Shown: positions 3,729-23,371 of the stretch, piece after piece
Layout: each line of letters opens with the position of its first letter
How positions within the stretch are numbered: the first letter of the stretch is position 1
DNA from: Hydrogenimonas urashimensis
GTDB taxonomy: Bacteria > Campylobacterota > Campylobacteria > Campylobacterales > Hydrogenimonadaceae
DNA length: 64,000 nt
Reading direction: 5' to 3'
Assembly (NCBI RefSeq): GCF_016593255.1
Contig: NZ_AP023212.1
Coordinates: 434,001 to 498,000, forward strand
The notes under the pieces: generated by a model
Databases searched by the model: none
What the model was told of the DNA's origin: nothing
What the model saw: only the letters and a program-made list of their open reading frames with translations
Program-made: the position numbers and the translations under genes

Positions 3729-5453
<1,725 letters not shown>

Positions 5454-7373
5454 TTACACCAGCTTGAAAAAGCAGACACCCAGCGGCGGGAGGCGAAGCT
5501 GCAGCGAATATTTACGGCCGTGACACTCGATCTGCTCCGTTTCGATCGGATGCGGATTGGTGATGTCCCACCCCTCGTAGTGCCGGTACTGGGAATTGAA
5601 GATCTCCTGCCACCGTCCCGGTATCGGTATGCCGATCCGATAGTGGTTATAGACGGTGTCGGCGAAGTTGCAGACCACCAGGATCGTCTCCTCTTCGATG
5701 TCGCTCTTTCGAAGAAACGCCAGGACATTGTGCTGGTAATCGGTATCGTCGATCCACTCGAAACCGGCGTGTTTTTCGTCATAAAGATGAAGGGCCCGTT
5801 CGCTTTTGTAGAGGGCGTTGAGATCGCTCACGAGTCGCTGTATGCCCCGATGGCACGGGTTTTCGAGCAGGTGCCAGTCGAGGCTCTGCTTGTAGTTCCA
5901 CTCGGCCCACTGGGCGAACTCGCCCCCCATGAAGAGCAGCTTCTTGCCAGGATGGGCCGTCATATAGGCAAAAAGCGCCCTGAGGTTGGCGTATTTCTGG
6001 TTGTCGTCTCCTGGCATTTTGCGGATGAGCGAGCCTTTCATATGCACCACTTCGTCGTGGCTGAGGGGAAGAACGAAGTTTTCGTCGAAGGCATACCACA
6101 TGCTGAAAGTGATCTGATGGTGATGGTGCTGCCGGTAGATGGGGTCGAGTTTGAAATATTTGAGGGTGTCGTGCATCCATCCCATGTTCCATTTGAAACC
6201 GAAACCCAGGCCGCCGGCATAGACGGGTCTGGTCACCATCGGATAGGCGGTCGACTCCTCCGCCACCATGATGATATCCCCGTGTTCGCCGTAGACCGTT
6301 TCGTTGAGCTGCTTGAGAAATTCGATCGCTTCGAGGTTTTCATTGCCGCCGTATTTGTTGGGTATCCACTCTCCCTCGTTTCTGGCGTAATCGAGATAGA
6401 GCATGGAGGCGACGGCATCGACACGTATGCCGTCGATATGGTATTTTTCGAGCCAATACATGGCGCTGGAGATCAAAAAGGCTCTCACTTCGTTGCGGCC
6501 GTAGTTGAAGATGGCACTCTTCCATTCAGGGTGGTATCCCAGCCGGGGATCCATATGTTCGTAGAGGCAGGTGCCATCGAAATTGATCAGACCGTGCCCG
6601 TCGGTGACGAAATGCGACGGTACCCAGTCCATGATGACCCCGATGCCGTGTTGGTGCAGGATGTCGACAAACTGCATGAACTCCTGGGGTGTGCCGTAGC
6701 GCGCAGTCGGGGCGAAATAGCCCGTCACCTGGTACCCCCAGGAACCTTCGAAGGGGTGTTCTGTGATCGGCATGATCTCCACATGGGTGTAGTTCATATC
6801 GACGAGATAGCGCGCGAGCTCCTCAGCGGCCTCGATGTAGGTGAGGGGACGGTTGCCCTCTTCGACCTTCCGCCGCCACGACCCAAGATGCACTTCGTAG
6901 ATACAGATGGGCTTGTCATGGGCGTTTTTCTCTTTGCGCAGATCCATCCAGCTCTCGTCGTTCCACCGATAGTCCTCTATTTCCCAGATACGGGAGGCAG
7001 AGTTCGGCGGTTTTTCGGCATATTTGGCGTAGGGATCGGCTTTTTCGAAGGTTCTGCCGTCCATCTTCGAGACAATATGGTATTTGTAGGTTTCTCCGAT
7101 TCCGACGTTGTCGATGAAACCCTCCCAGATGCCCGACTCATCCTCCCGCAGTTTCAGGGGATGGGCGGCGGCGTCATAGCCGTTGAAATCCCCGATGACG
7201 CTGACCATCGCGGCATTGGGCGCCCAGACGGCGAAATAGACGCCGGGCACACCCTCTCTCTCCATAAAGTGGGAACCGAATTTGTCGTAGAGTTTGACAT
7301 GGGTGCCCTCCTTAAAGAGATAGATATCCATCTCGCTCAATCGCGTGACGTCGTAGTGTATTGCATGTTTCAT
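5454..7373 (-). CDS. glgB: 1,4-alpha-glucan branching enzyme
   Basis: Transfers alpha-1,4 glucan segments to alpha-1,6 positions during glycogen synthesis in the cytosol. The 639 residues show an N-terminal CBM48/E-set domain (about 25-115, YFAVWAPNAAMVSVIGDFNG) and a GH13 barrel with the expected motifs: DWVPSHF, GIRVDAVASMLYLDY (nucleophile Asp), MVAEESTAYP (acid/base Glu) and LPLSHDEV. It is shorter than the 728-residue E. coli enzyme because it lacks the extra N-terminal module, which is common. AAGGAG precedes the ATG. It lies between glgA and pgi in the same direction with 69-base gaps on both sides. Confidence 0.96.
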   Translation of the reverse strand: MKHAIHYDVTRLSEMDIYLFKEGTHVKLYDKFGSHFMEREGVPGVYFAVWAPNAAMVSVIGDFNGYDAAAHPLKLREDESGIWEGFIDNVGIGETYKYHIVSKMDGRTFEKADPYAKYAEKPPNSASRIWEIEDYRWNDESWMDLRKEKNAHDKPICIYEVHLGSWRRKVEEGNRPLTYIEAAEELARYLVDMNYTHVEIMPITEHPFEGSWGYQVTGYFAPTARYGTPQEFMQFVDILHQHGIGVIMDWVPSHFVTDGHGLINFDGTCLYEHMDPRLGYHPEWKSAIFNYGRNEVRAFLISSAMYWLEKYHIDGIRVDAVASMLYLDYARNEGEWIPNKYGGNENLEAIEFLKQLNETVYGEHGDIIMVAEESTAYPMVTRPVYAGGLGFGFKWNMGWMHDTLKYFKLDPIYRQHHHHQITFSMWYAFDENFVLPLSHDEVVHMKGSLIRKMPGDDNQKYANLRALFAYMTAHPGKKLLFMGGEFAQWAEWNYKQSLDWHLLENPCHRGIQRLVSDLNALYKSERALHLYDEKHAGFEWIDDTDYQHNVLAFLRKSDIEEETILVVCNFADTVYNHYRIGIPIPGRWQEIFNSQYRHYEGWDITNPHPIETEQIECHGRKYSLQLRLPPLGVCFFKLV

Positions 7374-7442: not shown

Positions 7443-8930
7443 TCACCGATAGTCCGCTACCCGCCGCGCATAGAGCGTGTGATAGTAGAGATCTTCATAC
7501 TGTTTTGCCGCACGTTCCCAGTCGAACCGTGCCTGCATCGCCGTGCGCTGCATGATCGTGTAGGCGTCTCTGTCGTACCGGTAGGTGTCGGCCGCCCACT
7601 TCACCGTATGGTAGAGGGCATCGTTGGTCGCCCAGTCGAATTTGAATCCGTTGCCCGTTTTGGTCGCCGGATCGTAGTTCTGGATCGTGTCGTCCAGTCC
7701 CCCGGTGGCACGGACGATCGGCAGTGTGCCGTACCGCAGGGAGTAGATCTGGTTGAGCCCGCAGGGTTCGAACAAAGAAGGCATCAAAAAGAGATCGCTT
7801 CCCGCTTCGATGATGTGGGCCAGTTTGTTGGAGTAGCCGACATGGCATGCGAAACGGTCGGGATAGCGACGGGCGATGTCGCTGAAGAAGCCTTCGGCCC
7901 ACTTCTCCCCTGTCCCCAGCATGACCATCTGCAGGTTCAGATGCAACAATCCTTCGATCGTGCCGGCGATGAGTCCTATCCCCTTCTGTTCGGCGAATCG
8001 TCCGACAAACCCGATAAGGGGGACATCGTCCCAGACAGGGAGGTTGAAACGCTCCTGCATGTCGGCTTTGCAGAGCGCCTTGCCGCTCATATCGTCCAGA
8101 TCGTACCGTTTGGCGATATAGGGGTCGATATCCGGGCTCCACTCCTCGTAATCGACTCCGTTGAGAATGCCGTAGAGTTTGTGCGCATGCGCCCGGATAT
8201 GGCCGTCGAGGCCGAACCCGAACTCGGGCGTGCGTATTTCGTGGGCATATTTTCGGCTGACGGTCGTGACGGCATCGGCATGGGCGATGCCCCCTTTGAG
8301 AATGTTGACACCGTCCATCGCTTCGAGCTCGTGGGGATTGAAGTGTTCCCAGCCCACCTCCATCACGTCCATCACGCCTTTGAAAAACTGTCCCTGGTGC
8401 TGCAGATTGTGAATGGTCAGAACCGTAGCGGCATTCCTGAACTCATCGTCGAAGGCGAAACGGGTGTTTCTCAAAACCGGCTGGGCTGCCGTATGCCAGT
8501 CGTGGGCGTGGATGATGTCGGGCCTGAACGCGAGTTTCTTACAGAGCTGAAAGGCGGCTTTGCTCAAAAAGATGAAACGGTTGTCGTTGTCGGGATAGCT
8601 GAATCCGTTCTCGTCGGCGTAGAGGCCTGAGCGTCCGAAGAACCGCTCGAAATCGATGAAATAGACCGGTACGTCGCTGCCGGGCAGCGTATCCTTGTAG
8701 ACGCCGGCCCACAGCTCCCCCATCGCCCCCATCGGCACTCCAAGCGGTCCGGGAACATGCTCCAGCTTGCTCTTGTCGATCGAGTAGTAACGTGGCATGA
8801 CGACGATGACGTTGTGTCCCAGTCTCGCGAGCGCTTTGGGCAGCGCTCCCGCCACATCGGCCAGCCCGCCCGTCTTGGCGAAAGGGACAACTTCGGAGGC
8901 GGTGAAAAGTATGTTCAGCGCTTGATTCAT
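7443..8930 (-). CDS. glgA: Glycogen synthase, first copy (GT5)
   Basis: Elongates alpha-1,4 glucan from an NDP-glucose donor, normally ADP-glucose. The 495 residues have both GT5 Rossmann lobes: an N-terminal donor-binding KTGGLADVAGALPKAL motif at about 20-35 and a C-terminal PSLFEPCGLNQIYSLRYGT motif containing the catalytic E-x7-E region. The ATG has AAAGGAA upstream. It lies 34 bases after the glucokinase gene and 69 before glgB. A second, divergent glycogen synthase is encoded less than 1 kb upstream in the same run. Bacteria with two GlgA proteins may use them for different primers or donors; that is inference here. Confidence 0.95.
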   Translation of the reverse strand: MNQALNILFTASEVVPFAKTGGLADVAGALPKALARLGHNVIVVMPRYYSIDKSKLEHVPGPLGVPMGAMGELWAGVYKDTLPGSDVPVYFIDFERFFGRSGLYADENGFSYPDNDNRFIFLSKAAFQLCKKLAFRPDIIHAHDWHTAAQPVLRNTRFAFDDEFRNAATVLTIHNLQHQGQFFKGVMDVMEVGWEHFNPHELEAMDGVNILKGGIAHADAVTTVSRKYAHEIRTPEFGFGLDGHIRAHAHKLYGILNGVDYEEWSPDIDPYIAKRYDLDDMSGKALCKADMQERFNLPVWDDVPLIGFVGRFAEQKGIGLIAGTIEGLLHLNLQMVMLGTGEKWAEGFFSDIARRYPDRFACHVGYSNKLAHIIEAGSDLFLMPSLFEPCGLNQIYSLRYGTLPIVRATGGLDDTIQNYDPATKTGNGFKFDWATNDALYHTVKWAADTYRYDRDAYTIMQRTAMQARFDWERAAKQYEDLYYHTLYARRVADYR

Positions 8931-8964: not shown

Positions 8965-9804
8965 TTACATTGTATCCAACAACAGCTTCGCTCCTTCCAA
9001 AGAGGCGTTTTCAATACGGGTCATCTCTATGTTGAGACCATCGCACGACGTTAAGAGCGCAAACTCGGTTATTTTCTTTCTGACAATCGGCAGAAGAAAA
9101 GGGTTGTGCGATACGACGCCGCCGCCTAGAACGAGAATCTTCGGATTGAGCAGAGTGACAAGTGTCGCCGACGCGTGCAGAAGCGCCTCGATATAGTGGA
9201 TTGCGACCTGACGGCAGGAATCGTCCTTTGCATGATAGAACCTCTTCAAATCGGGCGAGCCGTCGCATCCGAAGTGGCGCATCCACTTGCCGATGCCGGC
9301 GCCGGAAGCGTAAAGTTCAAGACAGTTATCCTTTCCGCATCCGCAGGCAAACGGCGCTTTACGGTAAGGAACATGCCCGATCTCCCCTGCGAGGCTGCGG
9401 AATCCATGGCATATCTCGCCCCGCTCCACGATGCCGCTTCCTAGGCCGGTGCCCGAATAGAGGGCCACGAGGTGCCCCTCCTTCCAGTAGACCGATTCGG
9501 CCAGCGCGGCGCAGTTGAGATCGTTCTCTATCCGCAGGGGGATGCCGTAGGCGGTTTCGAAGTAGTCCCGCAAATCCGGCCTTCTGACCTCTATGTTCGG
9601 TGCCGAGAGGATCACCCCATCATGCACCTGTCCGGCAAAAGAGACGGCGACGGCATCGATGCCGGGATGGCTTTTGAGCATCGACTCGATGAAGAGGGAG
9701 ATCTCCGTCTTTTTGCTGGGAAGGATTCCGCAAGTTTCTCTGCCTTCCCCGACCAGTTCGTACCGAAGATGCGTGCCCCCGATGTCGATCGCAAGCCGGC
9801 TCAT
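8965..9804 (-). CDS. ROK-family glucokinase
   Basis: Probable ATP-dependent sugar kinase making glucose-6-P. The 279 residues start MSRLAIDIGGTHLRYEL, the ROK phosphate-binding signature, and carry the catalytic Asp in ENDLNCAALAE, the EIGHVPY motif and the zinc-binding CGCGKDNC motif typical of kinases rather than ROK repressors; there is no helix-turn-helix domain. The start overlaps the stop of the second glycogen synthase gene as ATGA, with GGAG upstream, which implies translational coupling. Its place in a glycogen operon suggests it rescues free glucose released by the GH57 enzyme. The exact sugar (glucose, or another hexose) is inferred. Confidence 0.85.
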   Translation of the reverse strand: MSRLAIDIGGTHLRYELVGEGRETCGILPSKKTEISLFIESMLKSHPGIDAVAVSFAGQVHDGVILSAPNIEVRRPDLRDYFETAYGIPLRIENDLNCAALAESVYWKEGHLVALYSGTGLGSGIVERGEICHGFRSLAGEIGHVPYRKAPFACGCGKDNCLELYASGAGIGKWMRHFGCDGSPDLKRFYHAKDDSCRQVAIHYIEALLHASATLVTLLNPKILVLGGGVVSHNPFLLPIVRKKITEFALLTSCDGLNIEMTRIENASLEGAKLLLDTM

Positions 9805-11210
9805 ACCAGTCTCCGATAGAGCGAGAGGTAGTGTTCGGCACATTTTCGGATCGAAAAGTCACACACCATGTCGAAGCTCCTCACCCGGTTGAAACGTGGC
9901 TTCTTCGCGTACAGATCCAGTGCCTCCTTCATCGCCGAAACCATCGCGGTTGCGTCGGACTCTTCGAAAAAGATCCCTTTCCCGCAGAGCGGTTCTTTCG
10001 CGTGCCATGCATGGACCGTATCGCGCAGTCCTCCGACCCGATGCACGACGGGAATCGTGCCGTACCGCATCGCGATCATCTGGTTGAGGCCGCAGGGTTC
10101 GAACAGCGAAGGCATCAGGAGAAAATCGGCGGCGGCGTACATCCGGTGGGAGAGTGTTTCATCGTAACCGAAACGGACAACTATTCTTTCGTGGCGTTTC
10201 GCCGCCTCTTCGAGAAGTGCATGGTAACGGGCATCGCCGGAACCGAGAATGGAGAGAAAAAGCGGCATTTCCCCGATCGTATCGATCGCTTCGATGATCC
10301 AGTCGAGCCCTTTTTGCTCGACGAAACGGCCGATGAAAACGAAAAGCGGAAATTCATATTTGTTTATATCGATTTCTTCCAGGTAGGCTTTTTTGCACCT
10401 TTTCTTGTTGAGAAGCCGTTTTTTTGAGAAGTGAAAAGGAAGGGCGGGATCGGATGAGGGATCGTAGAAGGCTTCGTCGATGCCGTTGAGGATGCCGTAC
10501 AGTTTGTGGCGGTGTTCGCAAATAAAACCGTCGAGTCCGCATCCATACTCCGCCCGCTGAATCTCGAGGGCGTAACTGGGACTCACCGTCGTAACGAGGT
10601 CACTGTGGCGTATGCCACCCTTCATCCAGTTGATCGCCCCGTAGAACTCCATATCCTTCATCGTGAAATGGTGGGGGGAGAGCCCGATACCGGCCAGTGA
10701 CTCCGCGGGAAAGATTCCCTGGTAGGCGAGATTGTGGATTGTATAGACGGTTTTGGCGGCGATGCCTCTCTCTTTTAACAGCGGCGCCGCGAGTGCCGTG
10801 TGCCAGTCGTTGAGATGAACGATATGCACACCAAGACGTTTCGAAAGCTCCGCAACGGCGTGGCAAAAGAGCGCGAACCGGATATCGTTGTCCGGGTAGC
10901 AGCCGCCCGGCGGCCCGTAGATACCCTCTTTGTCACTGAGCGCTTCGTTGTAGACGAAAAGGTGCAAAACCCCGTCATGAATGGCCGAAAAAATTTCGGC
11001 CGTCCGGGTCGCCCCGCCGATTTGGAACGTGAAGTGTTCGCCGGTGGGTTCGATACCGTAGCGCTCCCTGTCCACGAAACGGTAGAGGGGCATGACCGCC
11101 GTCACCTCTATCTTGTTGGCAAGGGCCTTGGGAAGCGCGTGGGCGATATCGGCCAATCCCCCGCTCTTGGCAAAAGGAAACATTTCGGCGGCGGCGAAAA
11201 GGAGTTTCAT
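9801..11210 (-). CDS. Glycogen synthase, second copy (GT5)
   Basis: A 469-residue GT5 glucan synthase with the donor-binding motif KSGGLADIAHALPKAL at the N-terminus and PSLFEPCGLNQMIAMRYGT near the C-terminus, so the catalytic framework is intact. The real start is the ATG at 11210, which overlaps the galT stop as ATGA and has GAAGG upstream; a longer GTG frame into galT is an artefact. It differs clearly from the other GlgA in the window, for instance in the stretch after the N-terminal motif and in a Lys-rich central loop. It could act on a different donor or primer. Confidence 0.93.
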   Translation of the reverse strand: MKLLFAAAEMFPFAKSGGLADIAHALPKALANKIEVTAVMPLYRFVDRERYGIEPTGEHFTFQIGGATRTAEIFSAIHDGVLHLFVYNEALSDKEGIYGPPGGCYPDNDIRFALFCHAVAELSKRLGVHIVHLNDWHTALAAPLLKERGIAAKTVYTIHNLAYQGIFPAESLAGIGLSPHHFTMKDMEFYGAINWMKGGIRHSDLVTTVSPSYALEIQRAEYGCGLDGFICEHRHKLYGILNGIDEAFYDPSSDPALPFHFSKKRLLNKKRCKKAYLEEIDINKYEFPLFVFIGRFVEQKGLDWIIEAIDTIGEMPLFLSILGSGDARYHALLEEAAKRHERIVVRFGYDETLSHRMYAAADFLLMPSLFEPCGLNQMIAMRYGTIPVVHRVGGLRDTVHAWHAKEPLCGKGIFFEESDATAMVSAMKEALDLYAKKPRFNRVRSFDMVCDFSIRKCAEHYLSLYRRLV

Positions 11211-12238
11211 GCTTTGCCTTCGACGACACTCCGAAGAAGGTAAGCCGCATCTTCGGGTGGTACGGGGTTGATATGAACACCGCTTCCGAATTCGAAACCC
11301 CCGAGCCTGAAGAGTCTCGGAACGATCCGCAGTGCGAACCGCCACATCTGCGGAAGCGTTTCGAAAAACGGTTCCGTCACGATGTTTTTCTGCACGGGCG
11401 GCGTGTTGAAGGTGATATTGAAATCAAAATCCCCCAGTTCCACATAGAGTGCTTCCACGGTTTGTTTCAGAACATCGGAGAGGTCCCGAAGTTTCGCATC
11501 GTTGAGGGCGATCAGCGACTCCGTATTCTCCCTTCCCAGGATCACCACTTCGAAGGCGAAGGTCGAAGCGAAGGGGCAGAGAACGACAAAATGGTCGCTT
11601 TCGATGACGATTCGCTCTCTGTCGTGCAGTTCCTGCGACAGCACGCTTTCGAAAATGTTGTGGCGCCGTTCGAGAAAGTAGCGGTGGGCGCGCTCAAGTT
11701 GATCGAGTTTGCGTTTGGGAACCACCGGCAGCGCGATGAGTTGGGTATGGGGATGCGACTGCGTCGCGCCCGCGTAGTGGCCATGGTTTTTGAAGATCGA
11801 AAAATAGACGAGGCGGAAGTCGTTTTTCAGATCGTTGATGCGGGAACGAAGGGTAAAGAGCCAGTTGAAATATTCATCGTGGCTCCACCGGTCCATCCGG
11901 GTCAGGTGGCGCGGGGTGTCTATGATCACCTCATGGGCGCCCAGACCTTCCCATGCCTGGTAGATACCCGCTTCCCTGCTTTCCCAGGCCGCTTCGATCT
12001 GGACCGCTTTGTAGAGATTCGGCACGACACGGGTTTTCCAACCCGGGGTGTTGGGCTCATTCTCCCGGAGGGCGAAAATTTCGGGCGGCGTCATCGACTC
12101 GTGTCCTTCGCAGAAAGGGCATCTCTTTTTTGTCTCTTCGGTTCGGACGGGAGATTTGTAGCAGTCGGGTTTGTGCAGCCGCTCCGGCGCGATCAGGGCA
12201 TACTCGTCATGGAGCAGATCGTAGCGCATTTCAGACAT
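11207..12238 (-). CDS. galT: Galactose-1-phosphate uridylyltransferase family protein
   Basis: HIT-superfamily nucleotidyltransferase that swaps hexose-1-P and UMP groups through a uridylyl-histidine intermediate. The 343 residues include the zinc-type CPFC pair near residue 40, the KNHGHYAGATQSHPHTQL stretch with the His-Pro-His active site, and a C-terminal HIT-like half. No galE or galK is next to it; instead it sits between a GH57 amylase and a glycogen synthase, overlapping the latter by four bases. It may therefore balance UDP-glucose, ADP-glucose and glucose-1-P pools rather than degrade galactose. That role is inference. GGAAGG precedes the ATG. Confidence 0.85.
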   Translation of the reverse strand: MSEMRYDLLHDEYALIAPERLHKPDCYKSPVRTEETKKRCPFCEGHESMTPPEIFALRENEPNTPGWKTRVVPNLYKAVQIEAAWESREAGIYQAWEGLGAHEVIIDTPRHLTRMDRWSHDEYFNWLFTLRSRINDLKNDFRLVYFSIFKNHGHYAGATQSHPHTQLIALPVVPKRKLDQLERAHRYFLERRHNIFESVLSQELHDRERIVIESDHFVVLCPFASTFAFEVVILGRENTESLIALNDAKLRDLSDVLKQTVEALYVELGDFDFNITFNTPPVQKNIVTEPFFETLPQMWRFALRIVPRLFRLGGFEFGSGVHINPVPPEDAAYLLRSVVEGKA

Positions 12239-12291: not shown

Positions 12292-14322
12292 TCATACGAA
12301 CCAGTGTTCGGAGTAGTCTTCGTTCAGGTCGACCACCAATTCCGAGACACCCGGAAGCACCTGGACCACCTCCCTGTCGACAAGGACTTCAAGGCGCAAG
12401 CGGATACTCTCCATGTCATGAAAATGGAGCCGTTTTCTGATGCCGATTTCGACGATTCTGTCGATGGCCGCCGTCACGAGTCCCCCCTCTTTCGGCGGAT
12501 TGCGAAGATCGATGTCGATCGACCTTTCGAGCCCTTTGACATAGATGCGGATCGTGCCGCTTTTCTTGAGCCTCTCCATCTCTCCATCAAGACGGATGTA
12601 GAGGGTGTCGATATCTTCCCCCCAGTAGATCTTCGTGATGGGACCGCGTACCTTGTCCATTGTCGAAAAGAGGCGCGACTCGTCGATCATGCCGCTTCCG
12701 AGCCATTCGAAAAAGGAGGTAACCCGGCCGTCGATGGTCGGATGAATCGGGAATTTCGGCTCGTTGACCAGCGCATGGAGATTTTTTTTGTCCCCCGTGA
12801 TCGGCTTGAAAAGCACGGCAGGAGGGGGCACATCCATTAGGCTGTATATTTCGATCAGATGCGACCTGAAAAGGGCGTCAAACTCTTCCGAGTAATCGGT
12901 GTAGTGATCCTCCCCGTACCACCAGAACCAGTCGGAACACTCGGCTGCCAGAAAGTGGTCGGTTATCTTCTTTCGCACATCCTCCTGAAGCCTCTGTCTG
13001 TGGTTGAGATAGTCGCTTTTGGTCTGATAGATGAGCTCCCACGCCGCATTTTTTTCGGGGTGCCCGACCCAGGTGTCGAACGTGCCGTAAATCCAGGAGC
13101 CGGGGTGGAGTGTTTCCAACCTCCTTTCGTGTGTTCTGGCCAGTTCGTCCATCGTTACGGTGGAGCACCAGGGGGTCTGGCTCAGTTTGCGGTAGAGGGC
13201 ATCGAAGAAGTCGAAGGCGTTATTGGGGTAGAATTCCCAGGCATTCTCGCCATCGAGAATGACAGAAACGGCCGCATTTTCGCCTTTTTCGTCGATTTTT
13301 CGAAGATGGTCGAGGAAATCGCCGGCCGCTCGGTCTCCTTCCCAGAAGCGATAGGTGAACCCAATCAGATCGCTTAGGCCGTGGTCTCTAAAGGCGATGA
13401 ACAGATCGTTAAAAGCGTATCGCCGGTAGAGTTCGTCACGGTTGTCGCTTCCGATCGATTTGAAGAGGATCGCTTCGTCGGTGGCGATCCATTGCACACC
13501 GTTGTCTTTGTAGATCTCGGCGCTTTTTTCATCCACCGCCCCTTCGGCCGGCCAGAAACCGGTCGGTCTGCATCCAAAAACCTCCTCGTAGAGCGCGATG
13601 GCACGGCGCACCTGCTCTTTCGCGTCATCGACCATTGGAAAGTGGTTGGGCGGTATCTTCGTCTTCGGATTGGAGCGTTGCGCATTGCTCATGTCGATCA
13701 GCAGCGGAAGGATCGGATGGTTGAAGGGAGTCGTCGCCAGCGAAATCTGCCCCTTTTCCATCAACGAGCGGTAGAAGGGAAGAATCGTCGGAAGAAACCG
13801 CATCAGGGTCTCAAGAAGTTCCCGCTTGTCCGCCGAAGTGTACCCGCTCCCCTTTTTGAGCAGGCGATCTACCGTGGCATCGTTATGCCTGAGATAGTTG
13901 CCGCACCAGGCGAGCATGAAAAGAACTTCCAGCTCGATGAATTCGATATCGTTGAGATCGTCCCGTTTGAAAAGCTCCACATAGCGGTGAAACGGTTTGA
14001 CCATCGTATCGAACTGGGTCGAGTTGCAGATTTTCATCACATAGGCGCGCTCGTCACTGCTCAGATCCCGCGGTTCCTTGCTCCAGAGTGTCAAAAAAAG
14101 ATCGCACTCGATGCCATTTTGGATGTAGAGACGCAGCTGCTCGATCAGCGGCGGCGTTATATTGAATGTCGCTTTCAATGAGGGGTAGCGTGAGAGTAGC
14201 CACGGCATTTCGTAGTAATCTTTTATGGCGTGCAGAAATACCCACGGCATACCCATCTTCCCTTCCGCATTGCGGTAGTCGGGCTGATGCATATGCCAGA
14301 AGATGCTGAGAGAGAGGGCCAT
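12292..14322 (-). CDS. GH57 family glycoside hydrolase, alpha-amylase-like
   Basis: Cytosolic glucan hydrolase or transferase of family GH57. The 676 residues start SIFWHMHQPDYR, the family's conserved region 1 with its histidines, and show GFWPAEGAVDE with the probable nucleophile Glu260 and ILDGENAWEFYP with the probable acid/base Asp357, so the active site looks intact. A beta-rich C-terminal domain follows from about residue 500. There is no signal peptide, so it acts on internal glycogen. Its ATG begins directly after the TAG of the upstream pyrophosphorylase gene. GH57 members include alpha-amylases, 4-alpha-glucanotransferases and branching enzymes, and I cannot decide between hydrolase and transferase. 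Confidence 0.88.
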   Translation of the reverse strand: MALSLSIFWHMHQPDYRNAEGKMGMPWVFLHAIKDYYEMPWLLSRYPSLKATFNITPPLIEQLRLYIQNGIECDLFLTLWSKEPRDLSSDERAYVMKICNSTQFDTMVKPFHRYVELFKRDDLNDIEFIELEVLFMLAWCGNYLRHNDATVDRLLKKGSGYTSADKRELLETLMRFLPTILPFYRSLMEKGQISLATTPFNHPILPLLIDMSNAQRSNPKTKIPPNHFPMVDDAKEQVRRAIALYEEVFGCRPTGFWPAEGAVDEKSAEIYKDNGVQWIATDEAILFKSIGSDNRDELYRRYAFNDLFIAFRDHGLSDLIGFTYRFWEGDRAAGDFLDHLRKIDEKGENAAVSVILDGENAWEFYPNNAFDFFDALYRKLSQTPWCSTVTMDELARTHERRLETLHPGSWIYGTFDTWVGHPEKNAAWELIYQTKSDYLNHRQRLQEDVRKKITDHFLAAECSDWFWWYGEDHYTDYSEEFDALFRSHLIEIYSLMDVPPPAVLFKPITGDKKNLHALVNEPKFPIHPTIDGRVTSFFEWLGSGMIDESRLFSTMDKVRGPITKIYWGEDIDTLYIRLDGEMERLKKSGTIRIYVKGLERSIDIDLRNPPKEGGLVTAAIDRIVEIGIRKRLHFHDMESIRLRLEVLVDREVVQVLPGVSELVVDLNEDYSEHWFV

Positions 14323-16839
14323 CTACTCGTTCATCCACTCTTTGATCAGTCCGGTATACTTTTCATAGAGCGCTTCGCCCGCATCGTTGTCCCTGGCCTG
14401 CAGATAGAGATTAAGATAATCTCCATAGGTATCGGGAATCATCAAAATCCAGTCTGTATCGCTTTCCCAGATTTTGACACCGTCGACGGTGGAGTGTTTC
14501 TTGCCCTTGGCTATCTCGATGAATTTTCTCATCATTTTGCCCTTCTTGGCCTGCGGGCAGGGAATTTTATCCATTTTGTAGAAGAAGGGGTGAATCTCCT
14601 TCCCGATTTCGGAGAGTTTGATATCGTGGCGTATGAGCATCTCGACGATTTTCAGTGTGGCGAACATCGCATCCCTGTGGAGGGTAAACTGGGTAAAAGC
14701 GAAATTTCCGTCGATCGTGGCGATCAGATCGTATTCCCGAAGTTTTTCCGCTTTGAAATTGCTGTAGACGCCCCGCTCGATAACAAGATGCTCGAAAGCG
14801 ACCATGTCGGGCGCCCAGGTGGGCAAAAAGACCTTCATTTTGCGATTCTGCGACTTCGCTTCCAGGTTCAGCAGGTACAGAACGATCGAAAGCCCCTCGA
14901 TCTTGTCGAAAAAATTCCCCTTGTCGCAGACCAGTGCCACCCTCTGCCCGCCCGAAAAGATGGCAAAACCAGCATCGAGTCCCAGCGAAGGGACGATTGT
15001 GGTCAAATCTTTTTTCGTCTTGTTGAGCACATGCTGAAGACTGCTCATGCTCCGCGTCTCGGGATGGGCATTGAGGGTGATGTTGTCCAGTCCGATGTCG
15101 CTCAAAATCTTCGGAAAGATATCGGCGGTAATGCCATGCATCAAATCAACAGCGATGCGTACATTTCTTGAACGGAGTATCTTCTGATCGATCGTCAGTT
15201 CGATGGCGGTGCGGTAATCGTGACACTCTTCCCAGTTCAAACTTTCATGTATCGTCCCGATTTTGGTAAATTCGACCCGTCGGAATTTTTCGTTGAAAAA
15301 AGCCTTTTCGATCGATTTGGCCGTATTGTTGTCGATGCGCAGGCCGTCTTCATTGTAAAAATTGATCTCCGTCGATGTCGGGTCGTAGAGATTGCGCCGG
15401 ACATAGGCACCTCCGACGATATTCTGGTTCTGGGCGATCGCATAACGAACAACGGAGGGAGGAAGGCTTTTGAGATCGATCACATTGATACCCGCCGAAA
15501 GCAGTCCCCCGAGAAAGGCCCTTTTGATCATACGGGAACTCTTGTCGTGATCGCGTCCCACCATGATCGTCGTCCCAGAAGGCAGTTGGGCCGCGTAGGC
15601 TTCCGCCAGTTTCGTCGCCATTTCACAGCTGAGTTCGACATTCGATTTGCCGATCACGCTGCCGTATTCAAAGATCGAATTTTTGTATCTGCTGCCCCAG
15701 ACCACGTTTCGATTGACGATGGCGGCGGGTTCGATCTCCTTGTCGGGCCAGATCGTGACATCCTGCTCGATTTTGGCGAGTTTGCCGATCGTACATCCTT
15801 CGGCGAGAATGAGTCCCGCCTTGGCGGTGACATTGTCGTCGATGCGGTTGTTGTTGCAGATCACACCGTTGTCGAGAATGAATTTCTTGCCGATCTCGAT
15901 ATCGTGCCAGAAAACAGAATTGCGTATCTGGCACTCTTCGCCCAGTGTTACATTGTCTCCGATCACGACATTGTTGAGCTTCGATCCCCTGCCGATTTTG
16001 ACATTCTTTCCAACCACGACATTGCCGATGATTTCCACCGACTCGTCGATTTCGCTCTCTCCCGTCAAGTAGAGCGTCCCGTCGGGATAGGCCACCTTCC
16101 GGCCGGGGATTTTGAAAACGAGTCTCTCATTGAGAATGTCGTCGTGCACTTCCCTGTAACTGTCGGGATTTCCCACGTCGCGCCAGTATCCGACCGCGTT
16201 GTATCCCATCAGGTCGATTCCCTCTTTCATCAGCAGAGGGAAAAGGTCTTTGGCGAAGTCGAAGTTTTCTCCGACCGGAATGTAGTCGAGAATCTCCGGT
16301 TCGATGATGTAGATACCCGTATTGATCGTGTCGCTGAAGACCTCTCCCCAGCTCGGTTTCTCCAGAAACTTCTCGATCTTCCCGTCTTCGCTTGCGATGA
16401 CGACACCAAACTGCAGAGGATTCTCCACAGAGGTGAGGGTAATGGTGAGTTTCGAGTTTTTCTTTTCGTGATAATCGAAAATCTTTTTGAAATCAAAGTC
16501 GGTCACGAGGTCGCCGCTGACGATCATGAAAGTGGTGTCAAGATACTCCCGGCCGAAACCGACGGCGCCCGCCGTTCCGTAATCGTCATCCGGCAGAACG
16601 TAGTGAATTTTCACCCCCCAGTTGCTGCCGTCACCGAAATGGTTTTTGATCACTTCCGGCTTGTAATAGAGCAAAATGACAATTTCATCGATACCCGTTT
16701 CAACGAGCTTGTTGAGCGTATGCTCCATCATCGGCAGATTGACAACGGGCAGCATCGGCTTGGGTATGGAATGGGTCAGCGGCTGGATACGTGTTCCGAA
16801 TCCTCCAGCCATCATGACCGCTTTGATTCTTTTGGACAT
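14323..16839 (-). CDS. NDP-sugar pyrophosphorylase with hexapeptide repeats and a degenerate phosphohexomutase domain
   Basis: An 838-residue fusion. Residues 1-235 are a nucleotidyltransferase with AGGFGTRIQPLTHSIPKPMLP and the metal-site stretch VSGDLVTDFDF, of the mannose-1-P guanylyltransferase type. Residues 250-380 are left-handed beta-helix repeats (VVVGKNVKIG, VVIGDNVTLG). Residues 400-838 are a phosphomannomutase-like domain that has lost its catalytic residues: the serine loop reads GGAYVRRNLYDP instead of TASHNP, and the metal loop reads LDAGFAIFSGGQ instead of DGDADR. Similar fusions are known in cyanobacteria and other phyla. It is the only nucleotide-sugar synthase in this glycogen run, as glgC is absent, so it may make the NDP-glucose donor. 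AAGGA precedes the ATG. Confidence 0.88.
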   Translation of the reverse strand: MSKRIKAVMMAGGFGTRIQPLTHSIPKPMLPVVNLPMMEHTLNKLVETGIDEIVILLYYKPEVIKNHFGDGSNWGVKIHYVLPDDDYGTAGAVGFGREYLDTTFMIVSGDLVTDFDFKKIFDYHEKKNSKLTITLTSVENPLQFGVVIASEDGKIEKFLEKPSWGEVFSDTINTGIYIIEPEILDYIPVGENFDFAKDLFPLLMKEGIDLMGYNAVGYWRDVGNPDSYREVHDDILNERLVFKIPGRKVAYPDGTLYLTGESEIDESVEIIGNVVVGKNVKIGRGSKLNNVVIGDNVTLGEECQIRNSVFWHDIEIGKKFILDNGVICNNNRIDDNVTAKAGLILAEGCTIGKLAKIEQDVTIWPDKEIEPAAIVNRNVVWGSRYKNSIFEYGSVIGKSNVELSCEMATKLAEAYAAQLPSGTTIMVGRDHDKSSRMIKRAFLGGLLSAGINVIDLKSLPPSVVRYAIAQNQNIVGGAYVRRNLYDPTSTEINFYNEDGLRIDNNTAKSIEKAFFNEKFRRVEFTKIGTIHESLNWEECHDYRTAIELTIDQKILRSRNVRIAVDLMHGITADIFPKILSDIGLDNITLNAHPETRSMSSLQHVLNKTKKDLTTIVPSLGLDAGFAIFSGGQRVALVCDKGNFFDKIEGLSIVLYLLNLEAKSQNRKMKVFLPTWAPDMVAFEHLVIERGVYSNFKAEKLREYDLIATIDGNFAFTQFTLHRDAMFATLKIVEMLIRHDIKLSEIGKEIHPFFYKMDKIPCPQAKKGKMMRKFIEIAKGKKHSTVDGVKIWESDTDWILMIPDTYGDYLNLYLQARDNDAGEALYEKYTGLIKEWMNE

Positions 16840-16882: not shown

Positions 16883-17161
16883 TTACAACTCCAAAACTGA
16901 ATTTTTACTTCCAAAGGGGCTCTCTGTCTTTGGAAGATCATGATCGGTAATCCAGTCACTCTCGTCGACCAGATAGCCGAACTCGAAGGACTCTCCCACC
17001 GGCAGGACCTTCGTGATATAGTACTCGCCGTTCTTTTTCCGTTTCAACGGCTCCGGCTCCCAGTCGTTCCAGCTTCCCTTGATGGCGATCGTTTCGCATT
17101 CGTTGACCGGTGCCGTGAATGTAACCCACGCTTTCTTCCCTTTTTTTGTAATTTTGACCAT
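16883..17161 (-). CDS. Stand-alone CBM48 / isoamylase early-set domain protein
   Basis: A 92-residue protein that is a single CBM48 fold, the glycogen-binding domain found in branching enzymes and AMP kinase beta subunits. The hallmark is IAIKGSWNDWEPEPLKRKK, with the Trp pair expected to stack on glucose rings, followed by GESFEFGYLVD. It has no catalytic domain, signal peptide or membrane segment. AAGGAG precedes the ATG. It lies 26 bases after pfkA and 43 before the pyrophosphorylase gene. It may act as a glycogen-targeting or scaffold subunit for operon enzymes; this is inference. Confidence 0.85.
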   Translation of the reverse strand: MVKITKKGKKAWVTFTAPVNECETIAIKGSWNDWEPEPLKRKKNGEYYITKVLPVGESFEFGYLVDESDWITDHDLPKTESPFGSKNSVLEL

Positions 17162-19780: not shown

Positions 19781-21487
19781 TTATGTAAGAGGCTGGTGCT
19801 CTTTCATAAGACGGTCCGAAAGCCGCTTCGGCTCGTAGGGTTTGAAGTTGTAGAGCTTTTCGTAATATTCGACCACCATGCGGGACGAGGTGAAATAGCC
19901 GTGAATATCGTTCATCCCGTTTTTGACGATGGTGATCCACTCTTTCTGATTCTCGTAATACATCGGAAGAATCACGTTTTCGAGTTTTTCCATCATCGCC
20001 AGGTAATCGTGTCTGTCCTGCTCTTCGACCGGCAGCGTGGGATCGGCATGGGGAATCGTGAAGGAGTTGACACCGTCTTTCTGGAACTCGGCATGCCATC
20101 CGTCGGCGATGGAGAAGTGGACCGAACCGTTGATGCCCGCACTCATGCCGCTGGTACCGCTCGCCTCGCGCCCCCACCTGGGTGTATTGAGCCAGACGTC
20201 GGAACCCTGTTTGAGCATTTTGGAAAGGCGAAGCTCATACCCTGTGAGCACCGCCACGTTTTTAAACTCTTTGGACATCAGAATCAGGTCGTTGAACATC
20301 GACACCGCCCTGTAGTCGAGCGGAAAGGGCTTACCCGCCCAGATGATCTGGATAGGCCGGTCTGTATTCGTAATCAGGGCCCTGAAACGCTCCATATCGT
20401 ACGTCAACAGCCAGGGACGTTTGTATTCGGCGAAGCGTCGCGCCCAGACCAGTGTCAGAATATCGGGATCGAAGAGTTTTCCTGTCTGGTCCGCCACCTC
20501 CTCGAAAAGAATGTGCTTGAGATGCTTCTTTCGGCCCACCAGCTGGTAATCTTCATGTTCGAGCATCCAGCTCAGCAGCTGCTTGTCGGCCCAGTATCGC
20601 ATGTTCTGTGCATTGGTGATGCTGATAATCTCGCATTTTCCCGGTACATCCTTCCACATTTCGTTGGCCACTTTTTCATGAATCTTCGAAACGGCGTTGG
20701 CCCGCTTCGAAGTCTTCAATGCACCGACGGTCAGAGAGAAGTTTTCGTCATAGTAGTCGAGTTTCTTCTGTACCTCTTCGACGGAAAAATCGTTGAAAAA
20801 TCCCATTCTGCCGAGAAAGTGGACATTGTGAACCTCGTTGCCCGCCATCTCGGGCGTATGGGTCGTGAAGACAACATGTTTCTTCAGCTCTTCGAACTCG
20901 GGATACTTTTTCATCAGTTCGAAGACCATCGGCAGCGCATGCCCTTCGTTCATGTGGTAGATATCGATATCGATGCCCATTGCGTCCAGCACTTTCACAC
21001 CGCCGATTCCAAGGACAATCTCCTGTGCTATCCGCGTCTCTTCGTTGGGATCGTAGAGTTTGTGGCTGATGGTTCTGGAAAGATAGTCGTTTTCGAAAAT
21101 ATCGGTCGTCAGCAGAATGACCGGGGCGGAACGGAATGTATCGGCCGGAAGCAGGTAGGCTTTCACTTTGACCGGTTTGCCGTTGATCATCACTTCGACG
21201 ACGATTCCGGTCTCTTGAAGGAAATAGTAGAATTTCCTCCTGAAATCGATCTTGAGAGTGTTGTCTTCGTGTCTTCCTTGATCGTAATAGCCGTAACTCC
21301 AGAGCATGCCGATACCCAGCGTATGCTGACGTTTGTCGTTGGCGCTTCGCATGTGCGATCCGGCGAGAAATCCGAGACCCCCGGAGTAGGTCTTGAGTGA
21401 CTGATCGATCGCGAACTCCATGGAAAAATAGGCCACTTTTGTTTTGAAGTGCTCGTCAATCACATAGGGAAACAGTTCTTTGCTCAT
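19781..21487 (-). CDS. glgP: Alpha-glucan phosphorylase family protein (short type), PLP lysine replaced
   Basis: GT35 family. The 568 residues correspond to the short bacterial/archaeal alpha-glucan phosphorylase class, with AYFSMEFAI near the N-terminus, THTPEMAGNE, and VWARRFAEYKRPWLL around 350. Phosphorylases release glucose-1-P from glycogen using PLP bound to a lysine in the motif EASGTSGMK. Here the motif is REASGTSGMSAGINGS, with Ser449 where that lysine is expected. The protein may therefore not be a PLP-dependent phosphorylase, although its rest is well conserved and it lies between pyk and pgm, where a phosphorylase would fit. Some related annotated proteins share a non-Lys residue here. 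AAAGGA precedes the ATG. Confidence 0.85.
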   Translation of the reverse strand: MSKELFPYVIDEHFKTKVAYFSMEFAIDQSLKTYSGGLGFLAGSHMRSANDKRQHTLGIGMLWSYGYYDQGRHEDNTLKIDFRRKFYYFLQETGIVVEVMINGKPVKVKAYLLPADTFRSAPVILLTTDIFENDYLSRTISHKLYDPNEETRIAQEIVLGIGGVKVLDAMGIDIDIYHMNEGHALPMVFELMKKYPEFEELKKHVVFTTHTPEMAGNEVHNVHFLGRMGFFNDFSVEEVQKKLDYYDENFSLTVGALKTSKRANAVSKIHEKVANEMWKDVPGKCEIISITNAQNMRYWADKQLLSWMLEHEDYQLVGRKKHLKHILFEEVADQTGKLFDPDILTLVWARRFAEYKRPWLLTYDMERFRALITNTDRPIQIIWAGKPFPLDYRAVSMFNDLILMSKEFKNVAVLTGYELRLSKMLKQGSDVWLNTPRWGREASGTSGMSAGINGSVHFSIADGWHAEFQKDGVNSFTIPHADPTLPVEEQDRHDYLAMMEKLENVILPMYYENQKEWITIVKNGMNDIHGYFTSSRMVVEYYEKLYNFKPYEPKRLSDRLMKEHQPLT

Positions 21488-21736: not shown

Positions 21737-23371
21737 CTATCCGATAAGCCGTGTAACGATCTGCTGGGCGGATTGCTGGATTTTCGCCAGGTGCTCTTTT
21801 GAAAGAAAACTCTCCGCGTAGATTTTGTAAATATCCTCCGTACCGGAAGGTCGCATGGCGACCCATCCGTTCTTGGTCACCAGTTTGAGACCTCCGATCG
21901 GCGCCCCGTTGCCGGGTGCATTGGTAAAGATGTTTACGATCTTTTCGCCTGCCAGTTCATCGGCTTCGATATCTTCGGGCCGCAGCGTTTTGAGTTTTGC
22001 CTTCTGTTCCGCAGTGGCCGGTGCGTCGATGCGCGCGTAATAGGATTTCCCGAACCTCTCTTCGAACTCCGCATAGATCTCCGCCGGATCCCGGCCCGTC
22101 ACCGCTTTGATCTCCGCGGCGAGCAGATTGAGAATGATGCCGTCCTTGTCGGTCGACCAGACGTTCCCGTCGAATCGGAGGAAGGAAGCACCCGCACTCT
22201 CTTCACCGCCAAAACCGAGCCACCCTTCATAAAGACCCTCGACGAACCATTTGAAACCCACCGGCACCTCGTAGACCTCTTTGCCAAGATCGGCGGCGAT
22301 ACGGTCGATCATCGAACTCGAGACGAGAGTTTTTCCGATCTTGAGATTTTCGGGCCAGGAGGTACGGTGCTTGAAAAGATACCAGATGGCGACACTCAGA
22401 TAATGATTGGGATTCATGAGCCCCCCGACCGGAGTGACAATACCGTGCCGATCCGCGTCGGTATCGTTGCCGAAAGCCAGGTCGTAGGACTCTTTCAGGC
22501 GAACCAGGGAAGCCATCGCCCAGGGTGAGGAGCAGTCCATGCGGATCTTTCCGTCATGATCGAGGGTCATAAAGGAGAAAGTGGGATCGATCCACGGATT
22601 GACGATATCCATATCGAGTCCGTAATGCTCTTTGATCTTTTTGTAGACCCCCAGCGCCGAACCACCTAGAGGGTCGGCCGCGAGTCTTAGGCCGGATGCC
22701 TTGATGGCGTCCATATCGACGATCTTTCGCAGTGCTTTGACATAGGGGGTGATGAAATCGTACGTCTGCACATACGATGAGGCCAGCGCCTCTTCGTAGG
22801 AGAGTGCCTTCACCTCCGCCAATCTCCCCGCGAGAATCTCGTTGGCACGCTTTTCCACCACGGCCGTCACATCGGTGTCCGCCGGTCCTCCGTTGGGTGG
22901 GTTGTATTTGAATCCCCCATCTTCCGGAGGGTTGTGGGAAGGCGTGATGACGATGCCATCGGCGATGTCGGACGAGTTCTTGTTGTGTTCCAGGATAGCG
23001 AACGATACCAGCGGTGTGGGCGTATACTCATTGTCGGAGGCGATACGCACGTTGACGCCGTTGGCGGCACAGACACGCAGAGCCGTCATCTGCGCCGGCG
23101 TCGAAAGTGCATGGGAATCCATCCCCATATACAGCGGCCCCTCGTACCCCTGCGCTTTCCTGTATTCGCAGACCGCCTGCGTAATGGCGAGTACATGTGC
23201 CTCGTTGAAACTCTTTTTCATGGCGCTGCCGCGATGGCCCGACGTTCCGAACGCGACACGCTGGGTCACTTCCGAAGCATCGGGAGCGAGAAGGAAATAG
23301 TCGCTCAGAAGTCGCGGCAGGTTGATGATTCTCTCTTTCGGGACCGGCTGTCCGGCCAGTGTGTCAATCAT
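21737..23371 (-). CDS. pgm: Phosphoglucomutase (alpha-D-glucose specific)
   Basis: Interconverts glucose-1-P and glucose-6-P and so links glycogen to glycolysis. The 544 residues match the E. coli Pgm type: VAFGTSGHRGS near 45, the phosphoserine loop VITPSHNPPEDGG, the metal loop AFGNDTDADRHG, the sugar-binding GFGGEESAG and the C-terminal phosphate-binding RPSGTEDIYKIY. All catalytic residues are present, in contrast to the dead mutase domain in the pyrophosphorylase fusion upstream. GAAGGAGG precedes the ATG, which overlaps the end of the EI24 gene by eight bases, so the two are co-transcribed. Confidence 0.96.
   Translation of the reverse strand: MIDTLAGQPVPKERIINLPRLLSDYFLLAPDASEVTQRVAFGTSGHRGSAMKKSFNEAHVLAITQAVCEYRKAQGYEGPLYMGMDSHALSTPAQMTALRVCAANGVNVRIASDNEYTPTPLVSFAILEHNKNSSDIADGIVITPSHNPPEDGGFKYNPPNGGPADTDVTAVVEKRANEILAGRLAEVKALSYEEALASSYVQTYDFITPYVKALRKIVDMDAIKASGLRLAADPLGGSALGVYKKIKEHYGLDMDIVNPWIDPTFSFMTLDHDGKIRMDCSSPWAMASLVRLKESYDLAFGNDTDADRHGIVTPVGGLMNPNHYLSVAIWYLFKHRTSWPENLKIGKTLVSSSMIDRIAADLGKEVYEVPVGFKWFVEGLYEGWLGFGGEESAGASFLRFDGNVWSTDKDGIILNLLAAEIKAVTGRDPAEIYAEFEERFGKSYYARIDAPATAEQKAKLKTLRPEDIEADELAGEKIVNIFTNAPGNGAPIGGLKLVTKNGWVAMRPSGTEDIYKIYAESFLSKEHLAKIQQSAQQIVTRLIG

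Follow-up and report, generated by a model that had tools for sequence, protein, structure and literature searches.

The gene at positions 14323-16839 (minus strand) of the analysed 64,000-nucleotide stretch of the Hydrogenimonas urashimensis genome (hereafter the window) encodes an intact nucleotidyltransferase fused to a phosphohexomutase domain that has lost its active site, and it heads a run of glycogen genes. The fusion protein is probably a dedicated nucleoside diphosphate glucose (NDP-glucose) pyrophosphorylase supplying glycogen synthesis in the Campylobacterota, and as such a non-orthologous replacement of GlgC, the ADP-glucose pyrophosphorylase that textbooks give as the point at which bacteria control the making of glycogen. 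That the fusion is required for this pathway is supported by its exact co-occurrence with the glycogen synthase gene glgA, by conserved gene order and by abutting genes.

Domain architecture of the fusion protein

The first-pass annotation of this DNA had described a fusion of an intact nucleotidyltransferase and a dead phosphomutase at this position without giving its strand; the description was borne out, and the gene lies on the minus strand. Its product has three parts:

14323..16839, minus strand: fusion gene, 838 amino acids, comprising nucleotidyltransferase, left-handed beta-helix and phosphohexomutase-like pseudoenzyme domain (open reading frame list, Pfam)
16120..16839, minus strand: NTP_transferase catalytic domain, residues 1-240, motifs intact (GGFGTR..PKP, SGD110, EKP162, WRD221; Pfam, alignment, PDB relatives)
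15688..16119, minus strand: left-handed beta-helix linker domain, residues 241-384 (PF25084/Hexapep; strands in the AlphaFold model)
14326..15687, minus strand: dead alpha-D-phosphohexomutase domain, residues 385-838 (profile match to 9du5, E 1e-31; Foldseek TM 0.85)

In the Pfam search, residues 6-237 matched NTP_transferase (E 3.5e-54), residues from about 255 to 356 a left-handed beta-helix and residues 392-641 PGM_PMM_I and PGM_PMM_II; PGM_PMM_III and PGM_PMM_IV were not recognised in the fusion by the same search. When the C-terminal 454 residues served as query, a profile search matched the archaeal phosphoglucomutase/phosphomannomutase structures 9du5 (E 1e-31) and 1wqa (E 6e-29) along the entire domain. 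For the fusion, an AlphaFold model built from 35 sequences had a mean predicted local distance difference test score of 77.6, with the C-terminal part mostly at 80-95; its N-terminal half was poor because the alignment was shallow. In a Foldseek comparison, the C-terminal part of this shallow-alignment model showed the four-domain phosphohexomutase fold of 9du5 and 1wqa (template modelling (TM) scores of 0.83-0.85 by target length, E ≤2e-28), the match to 9du5 having E 3e-29 and TM 0.85.

Loss of the mutase active site

Two lost loops had been named in the first-pass annotation, which proposed an alignment with structurally known mutases as a check. The alignment with 9du5 and 1wqa confirmed the loss, with GGAYVRRN and LDAGFAIFSGGQ aligning with TASHNP and DGDADR, respectively, and added the sugar-binding and phosphate-binding loops, which are also lost and had not been named:

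15379..15402, minus strand: VRRNLYDP (residues 480-487) replacing the phosphoserine loop TASHNPPE (alignment with 9du5; canonical residue in 0/76 homologues)
14941..14958, minus strand: FSGGQR (residues 628-633) replacing the metal loop DGDADR (alignment with 9du5 and 76 homologues)
14701..14721, minus strand: ATIDGNF (residues 707-713) replacing the sugar-binding loop GGEENGG (alignment with 9du5 and 76 homologues)
14410..14439, minus strand: IPDTYGDYLN (residues 801-810) replacing the phosphate-binding loop RASGTEPIIR (alignment with 9du5 and 76 homologues)

All four loops were replaced in every one of the 76 aligned Campylobacterota fusion sequences, none of which has the residues of an active phosphohexomutase: the position of the catalytic serine is never serine (0/76), the first and third aspartates of the metal loop are absent throughout (0/76) with the middle one kept in 2/76, and the arginine pair of the phosphate loop is gone (0/76). 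The mutase domain is thus almost certainly catalytically dead, and since the same pattern was found in every homologue examined, it is not due to chance. More distant copies of the fusion (46-52% identity) show the same loss, and the loops are likewise gone from four actinobacterial fusions (from Streptomyces plasmids and Nonomuraea), examples of which carry DPVGER at the position of DGDADR and LPAAAEPVTD at that of RxSGTEPxxR. Judged from these sequences, the loss is either old or repeated.

The mutase domain is full length in complete homologues, and its ratio of non-synonymous to synonymous substitution rates (dN/dS) was about 0.05-0.11 in comparable pairs, compared to 0.02-0.06 for the catalytic domain. 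The low ratio indicates purifying selection, and recent decay into a pseudogene was rejected on account of both the ratio and the retained length. Several residues newly conserved in the former loops are Q632 (73/76), G711 (76/76), P802 (76/76), D803 (74/76) and N810 (74/76), and the former phosphate loop now carries the conserved motif IPDQYxxxLN. New motifs in a retained cleft suggest a new ligand or contact rather than drift, and the canonical holding of a sugar phosphate by the C-terminal domain has probably been lost. Sugar-phosphate sensing by such dead domains, as suggested in the first-pass annotation, is unlikely to work through the former active site, since both the phosphate-binding loop (RxSGTEPxxR) and the sugar loop have gone as well; a re-purposed cleft or a role in assembly is at least as likely as such sensing. 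The chances that the domain is regulatory or purely structural appear about even.

Co-occurrence with glycogen synthase and absence of glgC

The H. urashimensis genome consists of one contig of 2.30 Mb and is rated 100% complete. A search of this complete genome for glgC, which the first-pass annotation had suggested, gave no match to TIGR02091 near its cut-off, the top match being the fusion itself (132.9 bits, below the curated equivalog cut-off of 424.9). In a survey of 249 Campylobacterota genomes, each at least 90% complete, glgC was found above cut-off in 0/249. A canonical GlgC hidden elsewhere was rejected, as none exceeded the cut-off in either the genome itself or the 249 genomes of the phylum.

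The fusion was found in 35 of the 249 genomes and glgA also in 35, and these are the identical 35 genomes, spanning 18 genera and including many chemoautotrophs. Four of the fusions are imperfect, being split (G219), reduced to the first half (G239) or interrupted by an internal stop codon (G036 and G143), which may reflect assembly errors. In 27 of these genomes the fusion and glgA share a contig and are no more than about 15 kb apart; the remaining 8 have them on different contigs. Glycogen-positive and glycogen-negative members are mixed within families f4, f5, f7, f8, f9 and f11 and within genus g9; with at least six families and one genus mixed in this way, the fusion and glgA must have been gained or lost together several times. 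The suggestion, already made from the window, that the fusion supplies NDP-glucose for glycogen is thereby strongly supported by genomics (glgC in 0/249; fusion matching glgA in 35 genomes).

The other NTP_transferase proteins of the genome comprise RmlA, GMP-PMI, GalU and GlmU, all over the cut-offs of curated models, together with a CBS-linked protein and one marginal match, and a PgmG-type mutase is also encoded. The families of these other sugar nucleotidyltransferases (GalU, RmlA, GMP-PMI, GlmU and the CBS-linked type) have different products. Relatives resembling the CBS-linked protein by length (about 340-400 amino acids) are present in genomes without glgA as well, and this type therefore does not track glycogen. 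A scan of viral contigs for relatives from other phyla returned none.

The glycogen operon and its ADP-glucose phosphorylase-like member

Downstream of the fusion gene, seven genes follow in the same direction, and three further glycogen-related genes lie upstream:

12292..14322, minus strand: GH57 glycoside hydrolase, abutting the fusion gene with a gap of 0 (PF03065, E 9e-57)
11207..12238, minus strand: galT-like gene of the HIT family, nearest to the Arabidopsis At5g18200 ADP-glucose phosphorylase (1z84, E 7e-53; true GalT, 5e-18; SHPHTQ motif)
9801..11210, minus strand: glgA1, glycogen synthase of the ADP-glucose type, start at an inner ATG (TIGR02095, 503 bits)
8965..9804, minus strand: ROK-family glucokinase-like gene, start at an inner ATG (profile searches)
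7443..8930, minus strand: glgA2, second glycogen synthase (TIGR02095, 536 bits)
5454..7373, minus strand: glgB, branching enzyme (NF003811, 964 bits, over cut-off)
3729..5411, minus strand: phosphoglucose isomerase, final gene of the run (sequence reading)
16883..17161, minus strand: 92-amino-acid open reading frame for a glycogen-binding module of the AMPK-beta type, preceding the fusion gene directly (PF16561, E 1.2e-8, over cut-off)
19781..21487, minus strand: alpha-glucan (glycogen) phosphorylase (TIGR02094, 423 bits, over cut-off)
21737..23371, minus strand: pgm, intact phosphoglucomutase making glucose 1-phosphate (TIGR01132, 871 bits, over cut-off)

Counted from the fusion gene, the intergenic gaps are 0, 53, -4, -4, 34, 69 and 42 nucleotides, with genes abutting or overlapping. 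The operon contains two glgA genes and no glgC, as the first-pass annotation had read it; that reading overlooked the ADP-glucose phosphorylase-like nature of the galT-like gene and the AMPK-type open reading frame upstream. Among 80 related loci, most of those with enough flanking sequence keep the order fusion, GH57, phosphorylase-like gene and glgA, often followed by glk, a second glgA and glgB. A homologue of the small glycogen-binding protein is encoded immediately upstream of the fusion at 26 other loci, and this protein may tether the enzymes to glycogen.

Variations were also seen among these loci. Many relatives carry an additional gene resembling a second GH57 between the GH57 and phosphorylase-like genes (e.g. 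L016, 14468-16600, and L019, 14538-16580), which the window does not have, and at L062 (10001-13095) a fragment of the fusion precedes a full copy, perhaps as a partial tandem duplication. Two loci from records titled Helicobacter pylori PMSS1 and Desulfosporosinus (L083 and L086) show a typical Campylobacterota operon, and the titles look mislabelled.

The galT-like protein scored 183 bits against the Arabidopsis structure 1z84, which we take to be At5g18200, and at most 68 bits against true GalTs, and identification of 11207-12238 as a true GalT was rejected for this reason. The catalytic motif HxHxQ is kept as SHPHTQ, in agreement with the sequence of an ADP-glucose phosphorylase. The gene accompanies glgA in 33 of the 35 genomes and was not found in the other two (G125 and G210). 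One alternative is that the galT-like enzyme, as an NDP-glucose phosphorylase running in reverse, supplies NDP-glucose from glucose 1-phosphate and NDP while the fusion does another job. Its operon membership, its similarity to ADP-glucose phosphorylase and its presence in 33 of 35 glgA genomes are in keeping with this; however, the fusion matches glgA in 35/35, whereas the galT-like gene is missing from the two genomes named above and present in G057, which is glgA-negative. Furthermore, phosphorolysis is favoured at cellular phosphate levels, and the enzyme would therefore mostly consume NDP-glucose. Supply by this route is improbable; it would be fitting for the enzyme to turn over or salvage this NDP-glucose. 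The homologue in G057 (C1:1724805-1725794) occurs in a genome without either glgA or the fusion. For At5g18200, phosphorolysis of ADP-glucose is known from McCoy et al. (2006), a study cited by PMC11066809, where the role of the enzyme in plants is called unknown.

Substrate specificity of the catalytic domain

The catalytic motifs of the nucleotidyltransferase domain (GGFGTR...PKP, SGD, EKP and WRD) are invariant in all 76 homologues. In a phylogenetic tree of NTP_transferase domains, the fusions formed a clade of their own, apart from GDP-mannose pyrophosphorylases (GMPs), GlgC and CugP, with a support of 87/90 for the split from the GMPs, clades of which were among the nearest. The closest solved structures include GMPs (148-167 bits) and PDB 8x7s (160.8 bits); the latter is titled UTP--glucose-1-phosphate uridylyltransferase, tlr0611, and we take it to be CugP, the UTP-specific non-GalU enzyme of cyanobacteria. 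The sugar loop of the fusion, EKPSWGEVFSDTINTGIY, is CugP-like (EKPSVEEALSNHINTGIY) in its length and NTG form, whereas the loop of the GDP-mannose enzymes GMPPB and VTC1 is two residues shorter and reads INAGIY or INAGMY; the fusion does not have this short form. The CugP-like loop favours glucose 1-phosphate as the predicted substrate.

As to the nucleotide, ATP is slightly favoured, with GTP or UTP also candidates, because both synthases match the ADP-glucose-type model TIGR02095 (cut-off 328 bits) and the HIT-family partner is nearest to ADP-glucose phosphorylase. The kinship of the catalytic domain with GDP-mannose pyrophosphorylases and with CugP weighs on the other side. Precedents for a guanylyl donor are the synthesis of GDP-glucose by SVEN_2781 of S. 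venezuelae (PMC5247666) and a GDP-glucose pyrophosphorylase of Haloarcula japonica, which is cited in the review PMC11046441.

Several observations weigh against assigning the fusion to NDP-glucose supply for glycogen. The co-occurrence count is inflated by kinship within genera. A copy of the fusion on the Sulfuricurvum kujiense plasmid pSULKU01 (L099, 11001-13538) lies outside any glycogen operon, and its neighbours encode a phospholipase A and a patatin-like phospholipase. The actinobacterial fusions are found in other gene surroundings, with the Streptomyces plasmid copies amid mixed genes, and in PMC5982138 the S. coelicolor protein SCO1388 is said to contribute little GMP activity and is given no role in glycogen. 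The nearest curated model of the N-terminal domain is a mannose-1-phosphate guanylyltransferase of the Rv3264c type (NF052502, 258.7 bits, cut-off 440). Finally, the genome encodes a canonical GalU, in principle able to feed UDP-glucose to GlgA.

The Rv3264c-type model and the proximity of GMP clades in the tree would suit a fusion that makes GDP-mannose, or another NDP-mannose, and is merely co-transcribed with glycogen genes. Enzymes of that kind are SCO4238, specific for mannose 1-phosphate and GTP (PMC5982138), and SVEN_3972, which prefers mannose 1-phosphate with ITP or GTP (PMC5247666). However, the score is far under the GMP cut-off, the fusions form a separate clade, the sugar loop is CugP-like, and a separate GMP-PMI, scoring over its cut-off, is encoded in the genome alongside the PgmG-type mutase. 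A mannose role would also leave the 35/35 co-occurrence with glgA unexplained, and we consider it unlikely. That GalU-made UDP-glucose feeds GlgA, with the fusion as a regulatory pyrophosphorylase homologue without bulk synthesis, like GMPPA, is very unlikely, as all 76 homologues keep the catalytic motifs unchanged, in contrast to a dead regulatory subunit, and the synthases match the ADP-glucose-type model.

Proposed route to glycogen

The domain anatomy, the loss of all four loops, purifying selection, the operon, the exact co-occurrence with glgA and the absence of glgC are observations; what the fusion catalyses, with which nucleotide and under what regulation, if any, is inferred. On the most economical reading, the glucosyl donor is made by the fusion. 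The separate intact Pgm (21737-23371) would form glucose 1-phosphate, supplying the mutase activity absent from the fusion, whose N-terminal domain would couple glucose 1-phosphate to NTP to give NDP-glucose. This would be used by GlgA1 and GlgA2, and the chain would be branched by GlgB. The ancient C-terminal pseudo-mutase may have been retained for assembly, for allosteric control via a re-purposed cleft with new motifs, or for both. More tentatively, it is conceivable that GlgC was swapped phylum-wide and that the refilled mutase cleft is an allosteric module setting the NDP-glucose supply, paired with the NDP-glucose phosphorylase of the operon draining the pool.

A single conserved candidate would thus account for the missing GlgC in 35 genomes with glycogen synthase, and the operon provides a bacterial setting in which to view the family of ADP-glucose phosphorylases. 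The source of the glucose donor in the Campylobacterota, and the job of a pseudo-phosphomutase tethered to a sugar-nucleotide synthase, become testable questions. A literature search that covered few subscription journals, and is weak evidence in this respect, returned no report of the dead mutase, of a glycogen role or of Campylobacterota glycogen synthesis without glgC.

Comparison with known enzymes

GlgC and the fusion share the NTP_transferase domain followed by a beta-helix, placement in a glycogen operon and glucose 1-phosphate as presumed substrate; they differ in that GlgC belongs to a separate clade and the additional pseudo-mutase domain to the fusion only. CugP (tlr0611, 8x7s) shares the sugar-loop form EKPS..E..S..INTGIY, lacks a mutase domain and falls in a separate clade, and the GDP-mannose pyrophosphorylases (GMPPB, VTC1 and Rv3264c) also lack the mutase domain and have the shorter sugar loop INAG(I/M)Y. 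GMPPA is a regulatory GMP relative that has lost its activity; in the fusion the mutase part is dead and the transferase is not. The archaeal phosphoglucomutases/phosphomannomutases (9du5 and 1wqa) share fold and domain order with the C-terminal part, but all four of their loops are replaced in the fusion.

The fused architecture itself is already known, from proteins of the Streptomyces SCO1388 type. The actinobacterial fusions (Streptomyces and Nonomuraea) have the same three-part, collinear architecture (30-32% identity, 98-99% coverage), and their NTP_transferase domains group with those of the Campylobacterota fusions in the tree. In Nonomuraea gerenzanensis (L100, 4758-8520), the fusion gene follows one for a CDP-alcohol phosphatidyltransferase at a distance of 4 bases, which suggests a lipid-related role there. 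SCO1388, grouped here with the Streptomyces plasmid fusions by its description and not by sequence alignment, is described as an apparently bifunctional GMP/phosphomannomutase, with no dead site noted in the available part of PMC5982138. Annotation of such fusions as GDP-mannose pyrophosphorylase/phosphomannomutase is probably misleading.
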